Positions 31,553 to 44,565 of a stretch of 56,222 bases of DNA are shown here, piece by piece; position 1 is the stretch's first letter, and every line of letters starts with the position of its first letter. The DNA comes from Candidatus Tanganyikabacteria bacterium (lineage in GTDB: Bacteria; Cyanobacteriota; Sericytochromatia; S15B-MN24; VGJW01). The stretch covers positions 1 through 56,222 of the forward strand of contig VGJY01000006.1 in assembly GCA_016867235.1 (NCBI GenBank), given 5' to 3'. The translations under genes were made by a program, and so were the position numbers. The notes beneath the pieces are model-generated. The model was not told the origin of the DNA. It saw nothing but the letters and a program-made list of their open reading frames with translations, and searched no databases.

Positions 31553-32875
31553 TTACTGCGGGCGGCTGCGCCGGGACGAGTACGTCTGGTAGCGCGCCTT
31601 CTTGCGGGCGCGATCGAAGGTTCCCTCGCCGAGATCTTGCTCCAGATCGCGCAGGCGGGCGACCTCCTCGTCGATCTCCGGCGAAGCCGGCGTCCCCGAC
31701 AGCAAGGAGCGGGCATCCGCCAGGACCTGGTTGGCGCGGCGGTAGTCGCCCCGGTCGAGGGACTCGACCGCCTCGGCGCGGGCGCGCGCGGCCAGCAGGA
31801 TGGCGACGCGAGCCTGGACCGCGGGATCGAACGGAAACTCGGCCAGCTGTGCGGGGGCGACCCTGGGCAAGGTGCACTCGGCGGCGAGCGTCGAGATGGC
31901 GGGTCCCACGGAACCGGAGCCCGGAGCTTCAGCGCCTGGAGCGCTCGGAGTTCCGCCGCCCGGAGCTTCCGAAGCTTCGGCGGCCGCGGCGCCAGCTTCC
32001 GCCGGCGTCCACGAAAGCGTGGCCCGCAGCAAGGGGCCGGCGCAGTCGGGGCCGACCTTGACGCGTACGGCCAGAACGATCGGGCTGCCGGCCACCAGGT
32101 TGGGAAGCCGGAACGCGCCGTCCGGGGCGCGATCCAGGTCGTTGAACACGTCCTGCAGCACAGCCCCGGGCCCGGCCGCCAGCGACAGCGTGACGCCGGT
32201 CCCGACGGTGGCGAGCAGGCCGTGCAACTCGACGCGGAAGATCTCGCCCAGTTGCTCGGGCGAGGCGATGTAGTAGTAGTTGCCATCGCCGCTGCGCGCC
32301 ATGGCTTCCAGCAGGTCTTCGTTGTAGTCGTCGCCCATGCCCATGGCGGTCGTCGCCACGCCTTGCTTGTGCAGAGCCGAGTGGACCGCGCTCGCGATGA
32401 CATCGGGGTTGGATTCGCCGACGTTGGCGATGCCGTCCGACAGGAGGACCACGCGGTTGATCCAGCCGTCCTCGCGATGGGCGGCAACCAGGCTCGCGGC
32501 TTGCCGCCAGCCGTCGTGCAGCGCCGTGGAGCCGCCGGGCCGGATGCCGTCGATGCGCCGCACGATGGCCTCCTTGTCCCTTGCCTCGATCGGGCCCTGC
32601 AGCACCGCGACGTGGTCGTCGAACAGGGTGATGCTGACGCGATCGGTCGCCAGCAACTGGCGCACGGCGAAGCGGGCCGCCTTGCGGGCGTACGACAGCT
32701 TCTCGCCCGACATGGAGCCCGACCGGTCGATGACCAGGCCGAGGTTGATGCGGCGGCGGTCCGGGAGGGCCGCGGGCGGCGGGGGATCTATGCGGATCAG
32801 GATGTCCTGGGTGCATTCCTGATTGGCCGGCAGTGCGGCGCGCAGGGGAACGAACGCGATCTTCGGCATGGGCAT
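31553..32875 (-). CDS. VWA-domain protein
   Basis: The 440-residue protein carries a von Willebrand A domain: INLGLVIDRSGSMSGEK gives the MIDAS DxSxS (Asp50, Ser52, Ser54), IRPGGSTALHDG the Thr, and VVLLSDGIANVGE the second Asp. After it come beta-rich parts, a low-complexity Ala/Glu/Gly linker (about 310-340) and a C-terminal helical coil ending in a basic tail. There is no signal peptide, so it acts inside. GGAGG 6 bases before the ATG at 32875 fixes the start. It is divergent from the degenerate RecQ-like gene across 77 bases, so the two may be controlled together. VWA proteins often serve as scaffolds. Confidence 0.85.
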   Translation of the reverse strand: MPMPKIAFVPLRAALPANQECTQDILIRIDPPPPAALPDRRRINLGLVIDRSGSMSGEKLSYARKAARFAVRQLLATDRVSITLFDDHVAVLQGPIEARDKEAIVRRIDGIRPGGSTALHDGWRQAASLVAAHREDGWINRVVLLSDGIANVGESNPDVIASAVHSALHKQGVATTAMGMGDDYNEDLLEAMARSGDGNYYYIASPEQLGEIFRVELHGLLATVGTGVTLSLAAGPGAVLQDVFNDLDRAPDGAFRLPNLVAGSPIVLAVRVKVGPDCAGPLLRATLSWTPAEAGAAAAEASEAPGGGTPSAPGAEAPGSGSVGPAISTLAAECTLPRVAPAQLAEFPFDPAVQARVAILLAARARAEAVESLDRGDYRRANQVLADARSLLSGTPASPEIDEEVARLRDLEQDLGEGTFDRARKKARYQTYSSRRSRPQ

Positions 32876-32952
32876 GGGCCACCTCCGAGATCTGCAACGA
32901 GCCGGCCGGCCGGATCATTTCACGCCGATCCGGGAAGAATTCATCCGCAGCC

Positions 32953-35718
32953 ATGTCCACGTCCCGCGACCTCCTGGCGAACGCCCTCTTCCCGGGCGGG
33001 GCGGAGCATCCGTCGCAACAGGTGCGCGGCGCCTGGTACGCGGCGCTTGCGGCGCGCGCCGACCTGCGCCCGCAGTTGCGGGTCGTCGCGGCCGGGGAGC
33101 ATCTGCTGCGCCTGATCCCGTCTGCCGGATCCTGGGACGCCGTGGCCGGTCTGCCCGCAGCCCTCCAGGAGTGGTGGCTCCGCGAGGCGGCCGCATGGCA
33201 GCGGAGGATCTTCGAACTGGGCGGAGAAGGGCTGCCCAGGCGCCTGCGGGTCTGGATCCCCGACGGGCGCGCCGGCGCTGCGACGGTGGCGCTCTTCGAC
33301 GTGCTCGAAGCGGCCTGGCGTGCCGCCTGCCTGGCGGGAACGCCCTGGCGGCTTGAGCGCGTGGACATCGCGGTACCGGAGGCCGAGAAGAACCTCGAAG
33401 CCGCCAGGGCGGTGATCAACGGGTTCTGGGAACGCGATCCCGATCTGGTCTGGGAAGGACCGCAGAGCTCGGAGCGTGTGCCCTTCGAGTGGACGTGTCG
33501 CCTCGATCATGCCGACCTCGGCGCGGACTGGGTCCTCGACTCGCCGATCCTGGCGGCCACCGCCGGCCCGCAACTGCCGTTCGGCAAGGCGGCCATCGAG
33601 GCGCCTCTTGGCCCGGCGGGGGAGGCAGCCGGCCGCTACTTCCTCGAGCGGTTCTTCGGCGACCCGCACTTCCGGCCCGGCCAGTGGGAGGCAATCCGCC
33701 ATGCGCTCGCCGGCCGGCCGGCGCTCGCAGCACTGCCCGCAGGCGGAAGCGGCCGCTGCTACGAGATTCCGGCCCTGCTACTCCGCGGCGTCGGCGTGGT
33801 CGCGGCCTCCCCGGCTACCGCCGCCCGCCGTCGGGCCGACTGTGAGCAACTCGGGCCGGATCTGGTCCTCATCGTCTATGCGGCCATGCCCGAAACCGAC
33901 CGGCAGGGCGTGCTCGATCGCCTCGAGGCCGGGCGCGCCAAGCTCCTGTTCGTCTCGCCCGACCTGCTGCAGGATCAGCGCAGCGTCCAGCGATTGCGCC
34001 ATGCCATCCGGAAGGCGCCAGGCGGGGTCTCTTGCTTCGCGGTCGAGGATGCGGACCGGTCGTCAGAGTGGTCGGACGCCTTTCACCCGGCGTGGGCCAA
34101 CCTCCCGGCGGCGTTCGCTGAGCTGGGCGATGCGCCCGTGATAGCCGTTGCGTCCGGGGCCGGGGAGACGCTCCTGGCCGATGTGCGCGCGCAGTTCCGC
34201 ATCCCGGAGGAGCAAGTCGTGGCCCCCGCTCCGGGCGGTGCCGGCCCGGTCGCCGATCCGCTGCCCGCGGGAGGCCGTGGGGACTACCCGGGCTACAAGT
34301 TCGAGATGAGCGACCATCGCGAGCAGTTCGGCTTGCTCGCCCGCCACCTGGAGCGGGGCGGCTTCGCAAGCATGCCCGGATTCATGCCGGACCTGCCGCG
34401 CTGGGACGCGCCGCCGGATCGCGCCGGGCGGATCCGTACCTGGCTGGTGCGGCTGCACGGTCTGGGCCACATTGCGGCCTTCGGCGAGAGCAAGACCGTC
34501 TTCTTCGTGAAGCATGAGGTTGTGCCCGAAGGCGATCGATCCGCCTATCTCGGCCGCTTGCGGGCGCGGGCCAGCGAGCTGCTGAAGGGCGATGTGCCGC
34601 CCGAATTCGCGAATGCAGACGCCGGCGACCTGTGCGAGGCCCTGGTCGGGCAGGTGCTGGGACTCTCCTGGTCGGAGGCCCGCGCGACGGCCTTGTTCTT
34701 CGACCGGTACATCGCGCCGCGCCTCCATGAGGCGCGACCGATCGAGGTTCCCAAGGCCGCGCCGGCTCCAGGCGTGCCGGGGCCGGAAACCGAGCGCCTG
34801 CTCTACCGGCTCAAGCGCCTGGGCATCGTACGCGAGTACTTCGCCGAGCCGCGGCCCGAGGGAGGCGACGAAGCCCTGCGGTGGGGCGTGGCCGTGCGGC
34901 GGTTCGATCGCGACGGCTTCGAACCCGGTTTGCGGGCGGCCCTGGGCGCGCTCTCGCTGGATGAGGGCACGGTCGCCGCGCTGCTCGAGGAGTTCCGCGC
35001 TGCCACCGGGCCGCCGGCGCCCCCGGCCGAAATCGTCTTGCAGGGGCTCGAGACCTACCTCAAGGCGTTCTACTCCGTCCACGTCAGGCGCTGGCGCGGT
35101 ACGGGGGAGATCGCCCGGCCCGGCGCCGGAGCGGTGCGCGCGGACCTGCTGGATCTGGATACGGCGGAGGAGTGGCATCAGGCCGCGCAGCGGCGGGAGC
35201 GGGATCGGCTCGCGCCGCTCTTCGAACGAGAGGTGATCGACCTGGCCGCGACGCCCGATCTCGCGGCAACGGTCGCCTGGTTTGCCGCTCGCGGCCGCCT
35301 CTGGAGCTTGCGCGACCTCGCGACCGAGCGCGCGGCGCAAGGATCGGCCCGGCCCGCGGCGCACCTGATTCGCTGCTGCGCGTTCCAGGAACTAGGTGGC
35401 GTGGCGGCGGCGGTAGAGGCCGCGCGGCAAGCCCTCGCCTTGCCCGGGCGGCCGGACGAAGCCGCGGTACGGGCGATCCTGGCGATCGCCTTCCCGGCGG
35501 TGCGCCTGGCGTTGCTGGACGGCGGCGATGTGGCCGAAACGCTGGGCCGCCGGGAGTGCCGGCGCTGGCGACATGGCGCGTTCCGCGCGCTGCGGCGCGA
35601 CGCCGCGGCCGCCATGGAGTTGCTTGCCGAGTTGCGGCCGCTCAGCGCGGCCTGGCGCGGGGCCGACGGGGAGCTGGCCGTCCTGGCGGCGCTGGCGAGA
35701 AGGCTGGCGGCCGTATGA
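32953..35718 (+). CDS. RecQ-like protein with degenerate helicase motifs
   Basis: The 921-residue protein has a 220-residue unique N-terminal domain and a RecQ-type region at about 235-430. Motif 0 is intact (HFRPGQWEAI), and motif Ib (LLFVSPDLLQ) is close to RecQ. But the P-loop reads LPAGGSGRCYE instead of LPTGGGKSLCYQ, so the ATP-binding Lys is gone. DEAH is EDAD (VEDADRSSEWSDAFHPAW) and motif III is AVASGA. It therefore cannot be a normal ATPase, yet the frame is intact, so it is probably kept as a non-catalytic DNA-binding or scaffold protein. The rest (about 450-921) is Arg-rich and helical. The start is the ATG at 32953. Confidence 0.75.
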   Translation: MSTSRDLLANALFPGGAEHPSQQVRGAWYAALAARADLRPQLRVVAAGEHLLRLIPSAGSWDAVAGLPAALQEWWLREAAAWQRRIFELGGEGLPRRLRVWIPDGRAGAATVALFDVLEAAWRAACLAGTPWRLERVDIAVPEAEKNLEAARAVINGFWERDPDLVWEGPQSSERVPFEWTCRLDHADLGADWVLDSPILAATAGPQLPFGKAAIEAPLGPAGEAAGRYFLERFFGDPHFRPGQWEAIRHALAGRPALAALPAGGSGRCYEIPALLLRGVGVVAASPATAARRRADCEQLGPDLVLIVYAAMPETDRQGVLDRLEAGRAKLLFVSPDLLQDQRSVQRLRHAIRKAPGGVSCFAVEDADRSSEWSDAFHPAWANLPAAFAELGDAPVIAVASGAGETLLADVRAQFRIPEEQVVAPAPGGAGPVADPLPAGGRGDYPGYKFEMSDHREQFGLLARHLERGGFASMPGFMPDLPRWDAPPDRAGRIRTWLVRLHGLGHIAAFGESKTVFFVKHEVVPEGDRSAYLGRLRARASELLKGDVPPEFANADAGDLCEALVGQVLGLSWSEARATALFFDRYIAPRLHEARPIEVPKAAPAPGVPGPETERLLYRLKRLGIVREYFAEPRPEGGDEALRWGVAVRRFDRDGFEPGLRAALGALSLDEGTVAALLEEFRAATGPPAPPAEIVLQGLETYLKAFYSVHVRRWRGTGEIARPGAGAVRADLLDLDTAEEWHQAAQRRERDRLAPLFEREVIDLAATPDLAATVAWFAARGRLWSLRDLATERAAQGSARPAAHLIRCCAFQELGGVAAAVEAARQALALPGRPDEAAVRAILAIAFPAVRLALLDGGDVAETLGRRECRRWRHGAFRALRRDAAAAMELLAELRPLSAAWRGADGELAVLAALARRLAAV

Positions 35719-35756
35719 GTTCGTCTCCGGCTGCCCCGTCACCTGTCAACGACGCC

Positions 35757-35845
35757 CACGCCGGGCAGGGATGCCCGGCGAGTCGTCAAGGATGGCACAG
35801 CGGGGGGGCTCGGGGGGGCGGCACCCCCCCGAGGAGGCTGTAATG
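35757..35845 (+). promoter_or_regulatory. Shared structured leader, copy 1
   Basis: Hairpin 1 is GCCGGGCA (35760-35767), GGGA, TGCCCGGC (35772-35779). Hairpin 2 is CTCGGGGGGG (35809-35818), CGGCA, CCCCCCCGAG (35824-35833). Its last bases begin the ribosome site GAGGAGG, followed 5 bases later by the ATG of the next gene. A nearly identical copy leads the unrelated gene at 43438. Pairing would hide part of the ribosome site. It may be a translation control element or a transposed leader. Confidence 0.6.
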
Positions 35846-36937
35846 AACCATGACGGCGAGCGCTTCGACGCCGAACTCGCGGCCTTCGCGGCGGATCGCG
35901 AGGCTTTCCGCGCCGCGGTGGACGGCCTGAATCGCCGCGGCGAAGCGGTGCTGGACCACTCGGAGCGCCTGACGGCGCGCTCGGACGCGATGCTGGCCGA
36001 ACTCGCGGGGCTCAAGGAGGACGTCGCGGCGCTGCGGCAAGACGTGAGCGCGCGCCTGGAGGCCTTGCTGGGCCAGATCGAAAGTCAGCGCGATGAGGCC
36101 GCGGCCGCCGTGGCCGCCGCGTCGGCCGCCGTGGCCGAACTCCGCGGCAAGGCGGAGGACGAGGTGGCGGCTCACGGCGAGCAATCCCGCGCCGCGGTCG
36201 ACGCCTTGCTCGCCGACGCCCAGGAGGCGCACGAGAAGGTCCTGACGCGGGCGCATGCGGACTACTCCTCCCTGATTCTCAGGACCCGCGACGAGCACGA
36301 GGCATTGCTCTCGCGTGCCAGCGGCGATCACGCGGCGCTGGTCGCGGAGACCCGGAGGACGTTCGAGGGGCTGCGCGACGCGGTGGCAGCGCTCGAGCGA
36401 GGTATCAACGATCGCATGGCGGCCATCGAGGGGCATTCGGAAGAACTGGGCGAGCGGATGGACGCCGCCAACGTGGGCTTGCTGCAGGCCAGTGCCGACC
36501 TGGCGGAGCTGCTGGACAGGTTCGACGAGTTGCAGCAGGTGGAGTCCGCGGTGCGGTCGCAGGTGGACAAGGGGGCCAGGGCCGTGGCGCGCGTCGCGGG
36601 CCGGACGCGCGCCCTCGACCAGTTGCGCTGGGCGGTGGGTTTGCTGGCCGCGGGCCTGGGGCTGGCGATGACGGCGCTCGGCGGCCTGCTCGGCACGTCG
36701 CTGGGCCAGGGCGCGGCCGGCTGGCTGGCCGGCGGCGTCGCGGGCGCGGGCTTTCTGGGCCTGGGGGGATGGGTGATGCTGTACGCGCGGGCGCCGCGGG
36801 GACCCCGTGGGCGCGCGGAAGCGGCAACCCTGCCGGGCGCGGCGCTGCCGGGTGGCGCCGCGCAGCCGCCGGCCGGCCAGCCGGAGTCGGAAGCCATGCT
36901 CGCCGAGGCGACGGCCCCGGAGCCGGAGGATCGTTAG
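35843..36937 (+). CDS. Coiled-coil protein with two C-terminal membrane spans
   Basis: The 364-residue protein is helical coiled coil from residue 5 to about 245, with heptads of Ala, Leu and Glu (QDVSARLEALLGQIESQRDE, AEDEVAAHGEQSRAAVDALL, SEELGERMDAANVGLLQASADL). Two membrane segments follow at about 258-280 and 285-310, and an Ala/Pro/Glu tail. It looks like an inner-membrane-anchored rod. No family is recognised; a role in envelope or division is a guess. GAGGAGG at the right distance marks the ATG at 35843. It overlaps the convergent serine hydrolase by 4 bases. Confidence 0.72.
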   Translation: MNHDGERFDAELAAFAADREAFRAAVDGLNRRGEAVLDHSERLTARSDAMLAELAGLKEDVAALRQDVSARLEALLGQIESQRDEAAAAVAAASAAVAELRGKAEDEVAAHGEQSRAAVDALLADAQEAHEKVLTRAHADYSSLILRTRDEHEALLSRASGDHAALVAETRRTFEGLRDAVAALERGINDRMAAIEGHSEELGERMDAANVGLLQASADLAELLDRFDELQQVESAVRSQVDKGARAVARVAGRTRALDQLRWAVGLLAAGLGLAMTALGGLLGTSLGQGAAGWLAGGVAGAGFLGLGGWVMLYARAPRGPRGRAEAATLPGAALPGGAAQPPAGQPESEAMLAEATAPEPEDR

Positions 36938-38679
36938 CGCCGGACCAGATCCAGCCCGCTGAAGCGGAGCCGGCCGTCACCGCTGCGCACCAGGGTGTCG
37001 CCGGTCAGATTGCCCAGGCCCGTCACCACGGCTTCCGTGTTGGACAGGATGCGCAGCGCCTTGTACTCGCGGAGGCCCCCGAAGACGTACCGGGCGTCTT
37101 CGTAGAGGAGCCCGCCGTCCATCCGCAACGCGAAAGATTCCATGATGGGGAAGTCGTCGCCGAGGTTGGTCACGACGTAGTCGCCGACCATCCGCTGCCA
37201 CGCCGGCCGGACGGGGGTGGGCACGATGCGATCGCCCATCCAGTAGAAGCCGTTACGGCGGATGGCGAGCCGATCCTGGCCATCGACCCGGGCCACCAGG
37301 GGCTCCATCGTGCGCACCGCGACCGGCGCCGGGAAGGGCAGGAAGCCGAGAAGCTTGCCCTGCAGGCCCAGCGTCGCGTCGGGTTTGCGGTAGGTCTCCC
37401 AGGTGGCTCCCCAGAAGTCGAAGGCGAGGTTGTCGCCGATCGCCCGCGTGACGAAGGTGCCGACCGGCGTGGCCCACGGGCCTTCCAGGGCGGCCAGCGA
37501 CGGGGCGGGCGGCAGCGGCCGGGGGGCGACGGGGCTCGCGCCGACGCCGGGCCTGGGCCCCTGGGCGGCGATCATCAGCTCCAGGGCCCGCCTGGCCGCG
37601 TCGTACACGAACTGCCCGCCCTCGGCGGTGTTGGTCACGACGGCGACCGCGAGATCGCGATCGGGCAGGACCTCGAGTTCGGCGCGGTAGCGACCGACGT
37701 TGCCGCTGTGGCGGGCCAGGAAGCCCGAATCGGCGATCGGTTCGGTACCCATCAACATCCAGCCCAGGCCGATGCGGAAGTCGAGATCGAGCGATACGTG
37801 CTCGTTCTGCGGCCGCCACATCTCGTTCCACCAGCGCTCGGAGAGCAGGCGCCTGCCCGGCGGATCGCCCGGCAAGGCGCCGCGCCGGAGAGCGACCTTG
37901 CCGAAGCGCGCCAGATCGTCGACATGCGCGATGAGGCCGCCCGCCGGCACGTCGCGCATGGGCCAGTCGGGCAGGCTCTGGCCACGCTCGTAGGAGCGGC
38001 CGAGGCGCTGCGGATCGAAATCGCTGCCGGCCATCCCGACGGGATCCAGCACGCGGTCGCGGACCACCTCCTCGAAGGAGCGCCCGGTCTGGCGTTCGAT
38101 CAGTACGCCCAGCAGGTCGTAGCCCAGGTTCGAGTAGCCGTAGATCGTGTCGGGTGGCGCCGTGGCGTAGACTTCCGCCAGGTCGCCCACGACGCTCGAG
38201 AAGTGCGGCGGGTTGGCGGCGAGCGCACCCTTGACCCGGTTCGTCGGAATGCCCGCGTGGTGGTCTAGGAGTTGCCTGACGGTCACGGGATGCGGCTTCC
38301 CGTCATGGGTCCGGATGGCGAACTCGGGCACGTAGGTGCGGTACGGGGCGTCCAGATCGATCTTGCCGGCCTCCGCCAGTTGCAGCACCACCGTGGCCGT
38401 GATGGGCTTGGTGACCGACCCGACGCGGAACGCCGTCTGGCTCGTGGCCTTTCGCCCGGCCTCCCGGTCGAAGTAGCCGAAGCCGGCCGAGCGCACCGTA
38501 TCGCCCTCGACGACCGCGACGGCCGCTCCCACGACGCCGCTGTCACGCATCTGCGCCTGCACGTAGGCTTCGAGTTCGCGCCACGCGCCCTCCCGATCGC
38601 CGATCTGCACCGCCCGCAGGGCGGGAGCGCACGCCGCGAGGGCGGCGACGAGGGCTAGCGGCAGGAGGGTCTGGCGCAT
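36934..38679 (-). CDS. Beta-lactamase-family serine hydrolase lipoprotein
   Basis: This 581-residue protein has a lipoprotein signal with lipobox LAAC (Cys17) and the class C / penicillin-binding fold: SVTKPI (Ser88-x-x-Lys91), YSNLGYDLLG (Tyr182-x-Asn184) and HSGNVG as the third motif. Such proteins hydrolyse peptides or esters, or act as carboxypeptidases; few are true beta-lactamases. The C-terminal 150 residues form an extra beta domain. The start at 38679 is ATG with the signal directly behind it. It follows the glucosaminidase gene after 9 bases and is probably cotranscribed with it. Confidence 0.88.
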   Translation of the reverse strand: MRQTLLPLALVAALAACAPALRAVQIGDREGAWRELEAYVQAQMRDSGVVGAAVAVVEGDTVRSAGFGYFDREAGRKATSQTAFRVGSVTKPITATVVLQLAEAGKIDLDAPYRTYVPEFAIRTHDGKPHPVTVRQLLDHHAGIPTNRVKGALAANPPHFSSVVGDLAEVYATAPPDTIYGYSNLGYDLLGVLIERQTGRSFEEVVRDRVLDPVGMAGSDFDPQRLGRSYERGQSLPDWPMRDVPAGGLIAHVDDLARFGKVALRRGALPGDPPGRRLLSERWWNEMWRPQNEHVSLDLDFRIGLGWMLMGTEPIADSGFLARHSGNVGRYRAELEVLPDRDLAVAVVTNTAEGGQFVYDAARRALELMIAAQGPRPGVGASPVAPRPLPPAPSLAALEGPWATPVGTFVTRAIGDNLAFDFWGATWETYRKPDATLGLQGKLLGFLPFPAPVAVRTMEPLVARVDGQDRLAIRRNGFYWMGDRIVPTPVRPAWQRMVGDYVVTNLGDDFPIMESFALRMDGGLLYEDARYVFGGLREYKALRILSNTEAVVTGLGNLTGDTLVRSGDGRLRFSGLDLVRR

Positions 38680-38688
38680 CCCATGATG

Positions 38689-39906
38689 CTAGATCAGATC
38701 GTACTGCTGCATGATGCGGATGAGGCTCTGCGCGTAGACCGGACTGGTCGCGTAGATGCCGTGGATGTTCTTGGCGAAGTTGACCGGCGAGCGGTCGCGC
38801 TTGAAGCCCGCGAGGGCCTTGTCGTAGTACCCGTTGTGGAACAACTTCCCGTGCAGGGAGACCGCCTCGTAGAAGTCGTGGTACCTGGCGAACTTCGCGG
38901 TGATCGTGATGTAGCGGCCATTGACGTACTCCTGGGTCTTGACCGCCACGCTGCCGGCCGGGCCCGTGCCCTTGATGCCGAAGATGTTGTAGCCGCCGAT
39001 GGCGTGCTTGCCCCAGCCGCTTTCCAGGGCCGCCTGGGCGAGCGTGATCTGCCAGGGCACGCCGTACTTCTGCTCGGCTTCGACGGCCGCGGGCTTCAGC
39101 GCGGCGAAGAAGCGGTCCTTGTCGGTGGCCCCCCATTGCGCCAGTTGCGCCGGAGTGACCTTCCGCAAGGCGTCGGGCGAGCCGAGGTCGGCGGGCGGCT
39201 TTGGCTTGGCGACCGTGATGCCCAGGTGGCTCCAGGTCTCGGGCCCCACGATGCCGTCCACCGAGATGCGCTCGGCGCGCTGGAATGCCTTCACGGCCTG
39301 CTGCGTCCTGGGGCCGAACTCGCCGTCGATGGGCCCGGGGTCGAAGCCGAGTTCCTCGAGGCGCCGCTGCAGGACCTTGACGGCCTCGCCGCTGGAGCCG
39401 CGGCGCAGCAGCGGTCCCGAGCCCTTGCGCGCTGCGGGTGGCGCCGGCTCGGGCTTCGGGCCTGGCTGCGGCTTCGGCTTGGGTCCCGGCTTGGGCTTCG
39501 GCTTGCCCCCGGGTTTGCTGCCACCCGGGGGCTGCGGGCCCGGTGGCGGGTTAGCCGGCCCCGGGAGCGGGCCGAGCGGCAGGTCCGTGGGCGGCGGGGC
39601 GCCCGGATAGGCTCCGGGTGGCGGTATCCCCGGGTCGGGCCCGGGCGCCGGGTTGCCCGGAGCGGGGTTCCAGAGGTTGCGCACGAACCGTGCCAGGCGG
39701 CTCAGGAGATCCCACAACGCCGAGCCGATAGCCCCCAGGAGGCCCGGATCCGGCGCCAGCGCCGTGGCGACGCCCGCGGGGCCGCCCCCGGCCACCCCGC
39801 CGGAACGCGTGCCTGACCTGCAAGCAAGCAATCCGCTCACCCCCGGCCCGAGCCGGCACGTGGAACTCGGCGCGCGCGCTGCCCGCGCGTCCACTCGTAG
39901 AGCCAT
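38689..39906 (-). CDS. Cell-wall glucosaminidase with peptidoglycan-binding domain
   Basis: The 405-residue protein has a long Pro/Gly/Lys-rich linker (about 60-160), a PG-binding-1 domain (VKVLQRRLEELGFDPGPIDGEFGPRTQQAV, then DGIVGPETWSHLGI), and a C-terminal FlgJ/endo-beta-N-acetylglucosaminidase domain: PWQITLAQAALESGWGKHAIGGYNIFGIKG (catalytic Glu in LESGWG), KFARYHDFYEAVSLHGKLF, YATSPVYAQSLIRIM. It cuts peptidoglycan glycan strands. Only a basic start, no classical signal peptide, is seen, so either the start is further upstream or export is unusual. ATG 39906 is the first in frame. It precedes the serine hydrolase in one operon. Confidence 0.88.
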   Translation of the reverse strand: MALRVDARAARAPSSTCRLGPGVSGLLACRSGTRSGGVAGGGPAGVATALAPDPGLLGAIGSALWDLLSRLARFVRNLWNPAPGNPAPGPDPGIPPPGAYPGAPPPTDLPLGPLPGPANPPPGPQPPGGSKPGGKPKPKPGPKPKPQPGPKPEPAPPAARKGSGPLLRRGSSGEAVKVLQRRLEELGFDPGPIDGEFGPRTQQAVKAFQRAERISVDGIVGPETWSHLGITVAKPKPPADLGSPDALRKVTPAQLAQWGATDKDRFFAALKPAAVEAEQKYGVPWQITLAQAALESGWGKHAIGGYNIFGIKGTGPAGSVAVKTQEYVNGRYITITAKFARYHDFYEAVSLHGKLFHNGYYDKALAGFKRDRSPVNFAKNIHGIYATSPVYAQSLIRIMQQYDLI

Positions 39907-40002
39907 GCTTTACCCCAACTGCCCCTGGAGCGTCTGTTTCCTCGCAGGTTATCGGCCGGAGCGCGCAAGAAACGGTAAACGGAGGGCTAAGATAACTTTC
40001 AG

Positions 40003-41544
40003 ATGCCGTTAAGGATCGGGACTCCCGAGGCGGGGCCGCCAAGGCCGGCCGCGCCGCCGCCGCCCGCCGGCACGCGGCCATTGCAGGCGCTGCGCGACGC
40101 GCTGCGGCTCGGCGGTTCGAAGATTTCCGCGGGCGAGGACATCGTTCCCGCGCAGCTCACGCCCGAGGAGACCGGCCTGGCGCTCGATGGCCTCCTCCCG
40201 CCCGAGTACGCCACGCTCAAGGCGATCCGCGAGGACCGGGGGCTGGCCGCCGCGAAGGAGGCCTACCGGGCCGGCAAGACCGGCCCCTTCGCCAACGACT
40301 ACGGCGATCCCGGCTCGATGCTCTGGGCGGCGCGCCAGGCCCGCAAGAACCCCGAATTGTACAGGCTCGTCAAGGCCATCCAGCCTGGCGACATCCTGGT
40401 CGATTCCTGGAACAACCCCGAGGGCGGCATCGAGAAGTTCACCAAGGGCCCGTTCTCGCACGCGGTGATCTGCACGTCGGCCGGGCCTCCCCCGGAGTTC
40501 ATCGAGGCGGTGGGCCTCACGGGCGATTCTCGCGACCCGTCGAGCAACCGGGTGCGCCGCATCGGCCTGTCGCACCAGTGCTACGACAGCCTGACGGTGC
40601 GCATCGTGCGGCCCACGGAGGGATTGCCGGAGCCGGCCCGGCAGCAGGCCAGCGCGCGGGCGATCGCCTACGTCGAGAAGCAACTGGGCAAGCCGTACGA
40701 CTTCGCGCTGACCAGCCGCAACATCAACCAGGCGTTCTACTGCAGCAGCCTGGCCTACGCGGCCTACGCCGATCCGGCGGGCGCCGGCATGAAGCTGCCC
40801 ATCGACAAGTCGGTGGACCGAGACGCCTTCCTGGTCTCGCTGGATGCCGTCGTGGCAGGCCTCGACCCGGTCGACCGCGACGCCCTGACGGCCATCGTGG
40901 TGGCCCGCCTCGCGGGAAACAGCTACCAGGATCCCGGGGCGATCGTGGACGTGATCGTCGACGAGGTGCTCCCGCGCTCGCGCACGACGCAGCGCCTGGC
41001 GGACTCGCCCGAGGAGCGCGCCCGGCTAAAGGCGGGCATCCTCGAAGTGGTGCACGGCGGGGGCTTCGAGCGCGTGCAGGCCGCGGTGGCTGATCTGGCG
41101 GCCCGGGAGGCGGCCGGCAAGTTCAAGACGCCCGTGCTCGGGTTCTTCCGGCGCCTGCTGGCGAACCTCGCCGTCGGCCGGGCGGTGGAAGCCGACGTGC
41201 ATGCCCTGCTGGAGCGGAGCGGACTGGCGCGGCCCGAGGCCCTGCCGGCCGCCCTCAAGCTGCTCTCGGCCGTCCTCCCGCACGGCGAGACCCTGGCGGC
41301 CGCGATGTTCGGAGTGAAGGACGGGCGCACGCAGCAGATTCGCGGCTTCATGGACAAAGTGGACTGGGTCAACGCGCACGTGTTGTCGAACTGGGTGCTC
41401 CAGAAGCTTGGGTTCAAGCTGCTGCCCGGGCGGGCGCAGCCCGGGGTCAAGACCGATTTCGTGAGCCCGTCGGATCTGGCCTGGGCCGCCCTGCCCCACT
41501 ACGACTTCAACGTGAAGCCAGGCTTCCCGCTGGATCGCCAGTAG
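40003..41544 (+). CDS. Permuted NlpC/P60 (YiiX/YebB-like) family protein
   Basis: This 513-residue protein has a proline-rich start and a middle domain with the YiiX pattern: IQPGDILVDSWN, GPFSHAVICTSAG (His), FIEAVGLTGDS, QLGKPYDFAL and QAFYCSSLAYAAYAD (Cys). In this circularly permuted papain-like fold Cys and His swap order. Such enzymes cleave amide bonds in peptidoglycan or lipids. The C-terminal 200 residues are helical and unassigned. The N-terminus has no signal peptide, so it may act inside. The ATG at 40003 follows the motif GGAGGGCTAAGAT. Confidence 0.8.
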   Translation: MPLRIGTPEAGPPRPAAPPPPAGTRPLQALRDALRLGGSKISAGEDIVPAQLTPEETGLALDGLLPPEYATLKAIREDRGLAAAKEAYRAGKTGPFANDYGDPGSMLWAARQARKNPELYRLVKAIQPGDILVDSWNNPEGGIEKFTKGPFSHAVICTSAGPPPEFIEAVGLTGDSRDPSSNRVRRIGLSHQCYDSLTVRIVRPTEGLPEPARQQASARAIAYVEKQLGKPYDFALTSRNINQAFYCSSLAYAAYADPAGAGMKLPIDKSVDRDAFLVSLDAVVAGLDPVDRDALTAIVVARLAGNSYQDPGAIVDVIVDEVLPRSRTTQRLADSPEERARLKAGILEVVHGGGFERVQAAVADLAAREAAGKFKTPVLGFFRRLLANLAVGRAVEADVHALLERSGLARPEALPAALKLLSAVLPHGETLAAAMFGVKDGRTQQIRGFMDKVDWVNAHVLSNWVLQKLGFKLLPGRAQPGVKTDFVSPSDLAWAALPHYDFNVKPGFPLDRQ

Positions 41545-43291
41545 GGCCGGCTGGCGCGCCGGCCCCTGCCGGCTGCCGCAGCACGATCAGCGTCTCGTAG
41601 TAGTCGTCGAGCGAGCGCGGCCGGGCGTTCTTGTTGGCCTTGGCCAGGGGGACGTCGATGAGGCTCTCGCGCTCGAGTCCGGCTCGCTCCGCCGCTTCGG
41701 CGAGCAGGCGGGCCGTCGGCGCCACGTAGAGCGGCTCGCGGGTGGCGAACTGATAGAACGTGCTCTGCCTGCCGCTCACCACGACGGCCACGCCGCCGGG
41801 TGCGAGGATGCGCCGCATCTGTTGGAAGCAGGCGCGCATGTCCTCGAAGTAGCGCGCGGTGGGCACGGCCTTGATCGCACGCAGTTGGTCGGCGGCGAGC
41901 CAGTCCACCAGGGCCTGCTCCTCGGGCGGCAACTCGCCCGATAGGCTGCCAGCGTCCATCGAGCCGACGGCCGAGTCCACCAGGTCGTCGATCCGATCGC
42001 GTTCGAGCACGCCCAGGGCCAGGAAGGACAGAACGCGGGCCTTGGCGTAGGTCTCCCGACCGCTGGAGGCCGGCAGGTAGGGCGGAGACGTCACGAGCAG
42101 GTCGAAGGGACCGGTGGCGGCCGGCAGCGCCCGGGCATCGCCCTGGTGCACCATGGCCGGCGCCAGGCGCAGGGGCAGGTTGTCGGCCAGCCAGCGGGTC
42201 GCCGCCGCGATCCGCGGTACGCGCGCCAGGTTCTTCTCGGCCAGCTGCGCCAGCGTGGCTTTCGAGAACGCGAGCGAGAATCGGCCCACCCCCGTGCCGA
42301 GCAGGCGCATGCGGATGCGCCGGCTGATGGCGTCGGAGACGATCACCCGGTACAACGGCAGGCATTCGGGGGGAGCGTCCGCCAGCAGGCGGCGCACGTC
42401 GTGGATCTCGCGTTCGAGTTGCCTCCTGACGTCCGGGGTGAACCGCCGGTTCTTGACCAGCCAGGCCGGGAACGCGATCGGCGCGCCGGCGACCCCGCCC
42501 TCCGGTCGAGACGAAAGCTCCGAACCCGGGAGCGCAGGCGGCCCGCCGGCCCCGCGCCCGTGCAGGGCATCCACCTTGGCGCCCGCGATCAGCACCGCCA
42601 GGGGATCCAGGTCGTAGCCGTCTCCGGGCATCCCGAGCAGCGACGCCTCGAGCAGCGTCGTCCCGCTCCCGGCGAAGGGATCGACCACGCGCGGCGTCGC
42701 GAGGCCGAGCGCGCGAGCCCCGACGTTGAGGGTGCTGCGCACCATGCGCGGGAAGAACTTGGCCTTGTAGTAATGCAGGTCGTGGAAGAGGTGCGAGGTC
42801 GTCTGCGCGGCACCCAGGGCCGAGAGGTCGCCGTGGCCGGTCTCGAGGGCCTCGCGCAGGGCGGCCAAGGCGCCCGGGACCTCCGCGGCCGACCGGGCGC
42901 GGCGTACGACCACGTCCGAGAGCTCGCAGAGGAGGTAGTGGGGCGCGACGTCCGCGACGGTGCCGGCCTCGCGGCTGATGGCGTAGATGCGGGACACGAA
43001 CGAGACCCGGGCGGCCAGTTCGGGAAGGAGGGAGAGCGGGGCCGTGGCGCGATAGCCCTGGATGCCGGCGGGCCGGCAATCGGCGCCGGGCGCCCGCACG
43101 CCGGGCAGGTTGCCCAGTTCCGGGAAGTCCCGCACGACGCCGGCCAGGTCGGCCACGGGCGCGACGCCGCCAGGCAGGAAAGCCCGCAGTTCGCGCTCGG
43201 CCAGCGCGAGATCGCCCTCGAGCGCGATGTTGCGCCGGAGCTTGAAGAAGAAGACAGCCGCGGGACCCGCCTGCACGATCCATTCAAGCAC
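41507..43291 (-). CDS. DNA methyltransferase, N4-cytosine/N6-adenine type (SPPY)
   Basis: The protein has about 594 residues. RVVDPFAGSGTTLLEASLLG is motif I (SAM binding) and FDLLVTSPPYLPASSGR motif IV, with SPPY pointing to amino-methylation of cytosine or adenine. KAKFFPRMVRSTLN before it is motif X. The N-terminal 140 residues are unique, and the C-terminal part has the helix FEDMRACFQQMRRILAPGG and a closing beta strand region. No restriction partner is adjacent, so it may be an orphan. The start is uncertain: I give GTG 43291 with GGAG upstream; GTG 43354 is also open, but lies in the shared leader repeat. It overlaps the NlpC gene by 38 bases. Confidence 0.82.
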   Translation of the reverse strand: MLEWIVQAGPAAVFFFKLRRNIALEGDLALAERELRAFLPGGVAPVADLAGVVRDFPELGNLPGVRAPGADCRPAGIQGYRATAPLSLLPELAARVSFVSRIYAISREAGTVADVAPHYLLCELSDVVVRRARSAAEVPGALAALREALETGHGDLSALGAAQTTSHLFHDLHYYKAKFFPRMVRSTLNVGARALGLATPRVVDPFAGSGTTLLEASLLGMPGDGYDLDPLAVLIAGAKVDALHGRGAGGPPALPGSELSSRPEGGVAGAPIAFPAWLVKNRRFTPDVRRQLEREIHDVRRLLADAPPECLPLYRVIVSDAISRRIRMRLLGTGVGRFSLAFSKATLAQLAEKNLARVPRIAAATRWLADNLPLRLAPAMVHQGDARALPAATGPFDLLVTSPPYLPASSGRETYAKARVLSFLALGVLERDRIDDLVDSAVGSMDAGSLSGELPPEEQALVDWLAADQLRAIKAVPTARYFEDMRACFQQMRRILAPGGVAVVVSGRQSTFYQFATREPLYVAPTARLLAEAAERAGLERESLIDVPLAKANKNARPRSLDDYYETLIVLRQPAGAGAPAGPTGDPAGSLASR

Positions 43292-43351
43292 GGGGTACAA
43301 GACTCCGGAATGAGTAGCCGACCGGCTGTCCCGGTACTCCTGAACGAGCTC

Positions 43352-43440
43352 CACGCCGGGCAGGGACGCCCGGCGCCCCGCCACGGATGGCACAGCGGGG
43401 GGGCTCGGGGGGGCGGCACCCCCCCGAGGAGGCTCTAATG
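43352..43440 (+). promoter_or_regulatory. Shared structured leader, copy 2
   Basis: Hairpin 1 is GCCGGGC (43355-43361), AGGGAC, GCCCGGC (43368-43374). Hairpin 2 is CTCGGGGGGG (43404-43413), CGGCA, CCCCCCCGAG (43419-43428), again leading into GAGGAGG and the ATG. Differences from copy 1 fall in the first loop and the link between hairpins, while both stems stay paired. Between the hairpins an in-frame ATG (ATGGCACAGCGG) occurs in both copies. Confidence 0.6.
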
Positions 43441-44565
43441 GCCGCGCTGGCTTGCCCCCTCTGCACGATGCAGGTGCCGCACACGAGCCCGGGGCCGGAC
43501 GCCTACGTGTCGACGGGGAGCGATACCGACGGCTGCCCGCGGTATCAGGGCGCCAATCCCCTGTATTACCAGGTCGCGGTCTGCCCGTACTGCCATTTCG
43601 CGGCGTATCACGACGACTTTGGCGCCATCGATCCCGCGCTGGCCGAGACGATCGCCAGGGAGCTCTCGGCCGACAAGCGGGCGCTTGCGGTCGATTTCAG
43701 CCAGACCGAGCGGTCGCTCTTCGCCGCCCTCCGCAGCTACGAGCTGGCGGCCAAGAGCTACGAATTGCGCCAGGCGAAGGCCGACGTGCTCGGCTCGCTC
43801 GCGCTGCGCTCGGCGTGGATCTGCCGGTACTCGGGGCAACTGTCCCGCGAGGTGGCGTTCATGACGCAGGCCGTCAACTTCTACCGGGAGGCGCTATTCG
43901 GCGGCATCCGCGCCGATCGCCGCCTGGACGGCCTGCCCGTCACCTACCTCATCGGGGAGCTCCAGCTCCGGTGCGGCTTCGTGGACGAGGCGATCGAGTA
44001 CTTCGAGCGGATGGGGCACACGGTCGATCCCGGCAGCGATCTGGGGAAGCTCACCGCGGCGCGCCTGGCCGAGGCGCGGCGCGCCCAGGCGGCCGTGTCC
44101 CTGCTCAGGGGGATACCGCTCTTCCAGCCCATGCCCGAGGGCAGCCTGGGCCTCCTGGGCGTCAACTCGCGCAACTGCTCGTTCTCGGACGGCCAGGCGC
44201 TTTGCCGCGTGGGCGAACCGGGCGACGCGATGTACGTGATCGCCGCCGGCCAGGCGGCCGTGGTCATCGGCGGGGCCACCGTGGCCGTGCTGGGGCCCGG
44301 GCAGGCGGTCGGCGAGATGGCCCTGCTGACGGGCGCCGTGCGGTCGGCCGACGTCCTGGCGCAGGCCGCCGCCGAGGTGCTGGAGATCTCGCTCACGGCC
44401 TTCCGCCACCTGCTCAAGGTTTGCCCGGAAGTCATGGATCAGCTGGCGAAAATGGTCGCGCAGCGCCAGGCCGAGAACGCCGCCCGCGCCGCCGGGGCCG
44501 GGCCGTCGCTGGCCGACGTGACGGCGAGCCTGCAGCAGCGCTTCGAGGTCGGGGCGGAAGCCTGA
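43438..44565 (+). CDS. DUF2225 protein with C-terminal cyclic-nucleotide-binding domain
   Basis: The 375-residue protein has an N-terminal DUF2225 domain with two Cys pairs (ACPLCTMQV, VCPYCHFAAY), a TPR-like helical middle (REVAFMTQAVNFYREALFGG, CGFVDEAIEYFERMG), and a cNMP-binding barrel (FSDGQALCRVGEPGDAMYVIAAGQAAV, phosphate cassette GEMALLTGAVRSADVL). DUF2225 is of unknown function; its fusion to a cyclic-nucleotide sensor suggests a signal-responsive zinc protein. The ATG follows the shared leader (GAGGAGG, 5 bases). Its TGA stop is the left target repeat of MITE copy C. Confidence 0.85.
   Translation: MAALACPLCTMQVPHTSPGPDAYVSTGSDTDGCPRYQGANPLYYQVAVCPYCHFAAYHDDFGAIDPALAETIARELSADKRALAVDFSQTERSLFAALRSYELAAKSYELRQAKADVLGSLALRSAWICRYSGQLSREVAFMTQAVNFYREALFGGIRADRRLDGLPVTYLIGELQLRCGFVDEAIEYFERMGHTVDPGSDLGKLTAARLAEARRAQAAVSLLRGIPLFQPMPEGSLGLLGVNSRNCSFSDGQALCRVGEPGDAMYVIAAGQAAVVIGGATVAVLGPGQAVGEMALLTGAVRSADVLAQAAAEVLEISLTAFRHLLKVCPEVMDQLAKMVAQRQAENAARAAGAGPSLADVTASLQQRFEVGAEA

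Follow-up and report, generated by a model that had tools for sequence, protein, structure and literature searches.

Two genes that share no sequence are each preceded, in the window analysed here (a 56,222-nucleotide stretch of a Candidatus Tanganyikabacteria contig), by what looks like the same 89-base leader with two hairpins and a start codon at its end. A sequence-only reading of the window had left two proposals, namely a structured RNA that controls translation or a mobile leader that brings its own start signal, and the question is which of these accounts for the repeat. The two copies (35757-35845 and 43352-43440) are 92% identical over 89 bases and share the terminus GAGGAGGCT(G/C)TAATG, as that reading had described, and their mismatches fall where it had placed them, in loop 1 and the linker, and additionally at the base preceding TAATG. 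The genes behind them are indeed unrelated, since only that of copy 2 contains recognisable Pfam domains (DUF2225 and cyclic nucleotide-binding).

Extent and distribution of the repeat

A blastn search of the surrounding genome (G000; 6.12 Mb in 514 contigs) returned 43 matches (E<=1e-3), representing about 40 places, and the core GGGGGGCGGCACCCCCCCGAGGAGG gave 38 pattern matches compared with 0 for a reversed control, so the repeat is not due to chance and the further copies before other genes that the sequence-only reading had named as support exist. Alignment of about 37 copies revealed that homology extends some 42 bases further 5', up to RTGAGT, so that the 89 bases are the 3' portion of an element of 131 bases with the consensus RTGAGTTGCCCACCGGCTGCNCCGACACCNGTGCACGAGCCC followed by the 89-base part (Table 1). 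The repeat first described is therefore genuine, but its 5' edge, its tie to an upstream stop codon and the open frame that bridges it had been missed. The 5' module was found at 25 places in this genome, which also contains a second, rarer element family with a different filling. No match to the element was found in plasmid and phage collections. Integron attC sites were dismissed as a candidate identity as the copies are dispersed and form no cassette arrays, and an intrinsic terminator was dismissed as no U tract follows hairpin 2.

Table 1. Coordinates of the element copies, their parts and associated genes
Feature	Position	Strand	Basis
Element copy 1, full length, RTGAGT ... GAGGAGGCTGTAATG, 131 bases	35715..35845	+	homology of about 37 copies, RTGAGT to RTG
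Element copy 2, full length, 131 bases	43310..43440	+	homology of about 37 copies, RTGAGT to RTG
5' module (IS110-like left end), copy 1	35715..35756	+	matches left end of IS110-family IS in L179 and CCTCATGG junctions in Bradyrhizobium
5' module, copy 2	43310..43351	+	homology of copies
Hairpin 1, copy 1 (GCCGGGC/GCCCGGC)	35760..35779	+	2 pairs with compensatory changes, 35 copies
Hairpin 1, copy 2	43355..43374	+	same alignment
Hairpin 2, copy 1 (CTCGGGGGGG/CCCCCCCGAG)	35809..35833	+	conserved, no compensatory change
Hairpin 2, copy 2	43404..43428	+	same alignment
3' module, copy 1: ribosome site GAGGAGG and new ATG (35843-35845)	35831..35845	+	resembles GGAGTTTCTGATG of other element families
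3' module, copy 2: GAGGAGG and ATG (43438-43440)	43426..43440	+	sequence
Bridging open frame, copy 1, 42 codons, MSSSPAAPSPVNDAHAGQGCPASRQGWHSGGARGGGTPPRRL then stop, which overlaps next ATG (TAATG)	35715..35843	+	open frame in sequence
Bridging open frame, copy 2, 42 codons	43310..43438	+	open frame in sequence
Gene upstream of copy 1, stop within 5' junction of element	32833..35718	+	coding score 0.37 per codon
Gene started by copy 1, 364 aa, coiled-coil-like	35843..36937	+	coding score 0.62; no significant Pfam domain
Gene started by copy 2, 375 aa, DUF2225 and cNMP_binding	43438..44565	+	coding score, Pfam
Y1 (RAYT/IS200-like) transposase genes	G000:C417:725-1081; G004:C70:3180-3533; G001:C155:45260-45613; G003:C123:1525-1878

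Related elements are most abundant in a genome of the same family, G004 (JAJYIO01, 'bacterium isolate DBS2-1.bin124'), which contains 132 copies of the 5' module. Its elements are filled differently and end 3' in GGGGAGTTTCTNRTGAG, have lengths of 143-159 bases, and join at RTGAG where they stand in tandem (period 143 bases). The 5' module is present at two places in G003 and one in G001, an element-poor relative also of this family, and across 292 genomes of the phylum every other match is a single one with three mismatches. The elements of G004 and of the second family are filled by a palindrome that is also present alone; blastn matches of the G004 element in G001 proved to be such free-standing palindromes without the 5' module and were discarded as element copies. 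Many free-standing palindromes of the form CGCAGCAGCTTGCCCGCAGCGGGGCGAG..GAGAGGGGCTGCGGCCCCTCTC, the same that fills the G004 elements, are found at G001 loci L148, L156, L158 and L160-L164.

Several irregular arrangements were encountered in the genome itself. A copy without the 5' module (L041, about 2700-2910; G000:C10) has hairpin 1 repeated in tandem in front of it (54-57 bases per repeat; TGTCCCGTCTCACTGGCTCGGCACTGAYGCCGGGCAAGGATGCCCGGCGGAGGC), two loci (L039, 2990-3029, and L040, 3443-3476) carry the 3' half alone (GGGCTCGGGGGGGCGGCACCCCCCCGAGGAGGCTCTAATG) behind a different 5' half with AGTGAGAGG or TATGAGAGG, and at L039 the element is interrupted by another palindrome.

Start codons, stop codons and empty sites

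Coding calls at the element edges were made with a codon-usage score trained on the genome itself. By this score 33 of 37 copies terminate precisely on the start codon of a coding gene in frame with it; 18 copies begin exactly on the TGA at which an upstream gene on the same strand stops, and 17 have both edges so placed. Copy 1 lies between the stop of the gene at 32833-35718, whose TGA (35716-35718) is completed by the first A of the 5' module, and the start of that at 35843-36937; copy 2 is located at the start of the DUF2225/cNMP-binding gene, and the gene upstream of it is divergent. When the flanks were joined by script and the restored RTGA was classified against all 475 RTGA sites of the window, restored sites were start codons in 32/37 copies (73/475 in the window; Fisher p 3e-19) and start and stop overlaps in 17/37 (5/475; Fisher p 1e-17). 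Starts outnumber intergenic positions by 32 to 2 at element sites, compared with 73 to 132 in the background, a figure of 132 that is inflated by unscored parts of genes. This would suggest that start codons are favoured here beyond neutral retention at any non-coding RTGA, either because recognition of the target takes in a wider context or because insertions at starts are preferentially retained. The target is RTGA in this genome and RTGAG in the sister lineage, with no consensus outside these bases across insertion sites; of the 17 sites in G004 that could be resolved, 11 are intergenic and 5 fall on start codons.

Where relatives lack the element, the site reads as a stop/start overlap of 4 bases (ATGA or GTGA) or as an ordinary start, ATGAG. 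In G001, four pairs of genes that are separated by a copy here adjoin without an element. For example, the NuoF-like pair, whose genes are 70-73% identical, meets at CAGTGACC (CCCCAGTGACCAAG), and the others at CGATGACG (CCCGATGACGAG), CCATGAGC (CCCATGAGCC) and, in one case, TGATG, although the weaker pairs (28-41% identity) could be paralogues. Comparison of G004 with G001, within genus g2, provides firmer cases than this genome does, with gene identities of 84-94%. Thus G001 has the empty site AAAGGAGCTGCCCCCATGAGCCTGCTG where G004 has three copies in tandem between AAAGGAGCTGCCC-ATGAG and GTGAGCCTGCTG (gene 94% identical), and GGTTGCCATGAGC (CCCCGGTTGCCATGAGC), in which the stop of the first gene and the start of the second overlap as ATGA, where G004 carries a single copy (genes 84-85% identical). 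A further G001 start without the element is ATGAGCCAG (93.5% identity), and a more diverged pair, CTGCGACGATGAGCC, is also ATGA (66-72% identity). As the empty sites contain a single RTGA(G), insertion occurs after RTG, which afterwards stands at both edges; the core dinucleotide TG at both edges and the restored target are as expected of a non-autonomous element derived from the IS110 family.

On this basis the element would enter after RTG and repeat the core TG at both of its edges. As can be read from the sequence itself, its first base, A, completes the TG of an upstream gene ending in RTGA, which thereby keeps its TGA stop, and its 3' end (GGAGG-N5-ATG) leaves the downstream gene a start codon and supplies it with a new ribosome site. 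With stop and start both rebuilt, the element appears to harm either gene little. At 4-base overlaps the old RTG opens a 42-codon frame that ends at a stop overlapping the new ATG, and ribosomes could in principle pass from the first gene through the element to the second.

The bridging frame and the conserved stems

The 42-codon frame shares 4 bases with the upstream stop, and in 23 of the 29 copies that could be scored here its own stop overlaps the start codon downstream by 1 or 4 bases. The in-frame ATG from which the sequence-only reading had derived a 17-residue leader peptide is found in 11 of 37 copies and is absent from the rest, and so is incidental. In G004 the frame is open in all 39 distinct units, 34 of which have the same phase, with a length of 2 mod 3 (143, 146, 149, 152, 155, 158). 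End overlaps and open frames of this kind are what a family of real small genes would show, encoding 42-49-residue peptides and translationally coupled to their neighbours, but just the first ~13 residues are common to the frames of the two families, and that of the second family stops before the ribosome site. There is also no Pfam match and no clear constraint at the protein level: pN/pS is 0.81 in frame 0 compared with 0.98 and 1.14 in the other frames here, in G004 frame 2 is lower, and codon-level selection on the mini-frame is not demonstrated by this measure in either genome. Genuine small genes are therefore, in our judgement, very improbable.

In G004 the reading frame of the 5' module has taken the place of the original leader peptide of a prepilin, to which it is joined in frame (MSPPPAAPTALHETPPAERG followed by FTLLE; G004:C325:94; L237 from 93 onward, also L075). 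The G001 orthologue (L284, about 15905, minus strand) is 88% identical in the mature part and has an unrelated leader starting ATGAG. Judged from these sequences, the fusion can be taken as an indirect sign that the frame is translatable. Spacers of ~20 bases almost abolish coupling or reinitiation at stop/start overlaps (PMC10666635), and the 42-codon frame could therefore keep coupling alive, although related copies have the frame in common by descent and in the second family it ends short of the ribosome site. We tentatively suggest that the elements may be nearly invisible to translation, rebuilding both stop and start while a mini-frame kept in phase hands ribosomes across and preserves operon coupling.

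The conserved stems bear on the other proposal, a structured regulatory RNA (riboswitch, thermometer or protein-binding leader) that would act over a regulon of ~40 genes, with hairpin 2 sequestering the ribosome site. The strength of the stems agrees with such a role, as does the start codon behind 33/37 copies, copies without one having been named by the sequence-only reading as evidence against it. Paired changes in stems, which it had named as support, are present in hairpin 1, where covariation is modest (2 pairs, 5 cells, 35 copies), but no compensatory change was found in hairpin 2 among the 35 copies. Moreover, the two outer pairs of hairpin 2, by which the first bases of the ribosome site are covered, break without compensation (C108-G136 of the alignment in 6/35 copies and U109-A135 in 5/35), as that reading had said would speak against its hypothesis. 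A riboswitch-like alternative 5' pairing between the two G runs (CGAGCCCC/GGGGCTCG) is striking by eye and was rejected for its zero covariation, and a linker hairpin was rejected for want of covariation support. Rfam contains nothing that matches at the gathering threshold, and relaxed thresholds give sub-threshold matches at chance level, none of them credible. The sister genome has a different filling between like ends, so that no fold is conserved, and the genes downstream of the copies share no pathway (NuoF-like, uridine kinase-like, shikimate dehydrogenase-like, LysR-type, ABC ATPase, prepilin and others, identified by reading their sequences, the Pfam scan having covered the window genes alone). 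We consider translational control by a structured RNA to be quite unlikely; the conserved stems may equally be explained by the needs of mobility at the DNA level or by recent spread.

IS110-like ends and comparison with known systems

A scan of the 5' module against 84,980 species genomes located it four times in Bradyrhizobium sp. clean1649 (junction CCTCATGG/TGAGTTGCC) and in the Gemmatimonadetes MAG AVDCRST_MAG68, where it forms the left end of an element of 1.49 kb (L179) that encodes a 407-aa IS110-family transposase (PF01548, 103.5 bits; PF02371, 75.5; NF033542, 280.9 against a cut-off of 140). The right end of L179 is GTTTTGTTTCTTATCAGG, and a short copy in the same MAG (L169) has the left and right ends without the transposase. 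The right ends (GTTTCTTATCA compared with GTTTCTGATGA in the element here) match over a short length. The elements thus have both ends in common with an IS110-family IS and look like short non-autonomous IS110 derivatives; they are not themselves autonomous, being 131-158 bases long with a 42-49-codon frame alone and no Pfam match. This genome contains a C-terminal transposase remnant (C254:6294-6437, 44% identity to residues 360-407) followed by GCAGTTTCTAATG, and no intact cognate transposase was found in it or in 18 genomes of the class. On the same contig (L238) an intact 407-aa IS110-family transposase of another subgroup adjoins the L179-type remnant, apparently having inserted nearby.

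In such IS the non-coding region upstream contains a loop that, compared by eye, repeats the left junction (Bradyrhizobium, GATGGTGAGTTTGAC; L179, GTGTGTGAGTCGG; Variovorax, CGTATCTCAGTGGGA against the junction CGATCTCAGTGGTC), as expected of bridge RNAs (PMC11208160). Junction-like loops occur in the IS of relatives, and no cognate bridge RNA was found in this genome. Bridge RNAs of the IS621 type read ~11 bases (PMC11208160), whereas the conserved target here is just RTGA(G).

The multi-copy state, edges, target, empty sites and ends in common with an IS110 element are established as far as comparison of sequences reaches, and the repeat is probably a short non-autonomous mobile element, composed from the two ends of an IS110-family IS, that integrates directly after RTG. 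Copy number, empty sites in relatives and IS110-type ends accordingly favour the mobile leader with its own start signal over the regulatory RNA. An IS110 recombinase might mobilise the element in trans; against this, Y1 transposases, an alternative mobiliser, occur in these genomes. The repeat could then be a REP/RAYT-like element, with hairpin repeats moved by a single-copy Y1 (IS200/IS605-type) transposase. Y1 transposases use 4-5 base sites, and the target RTGA(G) is very short; Y1_Tnp genes are present in all four family genomes (G000, G001, G003 and G004), and some of the internal palindromes also stand alone in the genome. However, an IS110 element in another phylum and the short derivative of it have matching left and right ends, the junctions repeat TG in the manner of IS110 cores, and no element copy is among the matches listed on the Y1 gene contigs seen, so we regard a REP/RAYT-like origin as unlikely.

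Bacterial operons offer little room for insertions, and stop/start overlaps keep neighbouring genes coupled. An IS110-derived element that lands on such overlaps and rebuilds both codons would represent a route by which selfish DNA spreads in compact genomes, and with it the question whether coupling across >100 bases can be restored by a mini-frame becomes directly testable. Should a recombinase of the IS110 type with a target of 4-5 bases prove responsible, the known range of bridge-RNA targeting would be widened. For annotation, mobile DNA would have to be recognised at ~40 start codons here and at >100 loci in the sister genome.

No precedent for IS110-derived elements at start codons was found in the open-access literature, but partial likenesses to several systems are apparent. 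Like IS110-family IS (NF033542; bridge-RNA-guided recombinases such as IS621), the element has a left end TGAGT..CCACCGGCTGCGCCGAC..GAAAC and a right end GTTTCTNATNA, repeats TG at both edges and inserts in one orientation at a defined site; unlike them it lacks a recombinase, is 131-158 bases long, and has a target of 4-5 bases at start codons, where theirs has ~11 bases and frequently lies in REP palindromes. Bacterial MITEs and other non-autonomous IS derivatives (e.g. MITECca01, PMC9769881) are similarly short, multi-copy, gene-less, derived from a parental IS and confined to one lineage, whereas the element has no terminal inverted repeats and sits on start codons, rebuilding stop, ribosome site and start. 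REP/REPIN sequences with RAYT transposases are likewise palindromic and extragenic, with tens to >100 copies and tandem arrays, but the ends here are IS110-like and the edge falls on a start codon, not in open intergenic DNA. The TAACTGA direct repeats of Beggiatoaceae (PMC4679880) also lie just upstream of the start codons of unrelated genes, although these are heptamer arrays without a ribosome site of their own, hairpins or empty-site evidence. Finally, the ATGA and TGATG overlaps at which termination-reinitiation takes place (PMC10666635) correspond to the insertion site and are recreated at both edges of the element, the difference being that here a mobile element sits between two overlaps.
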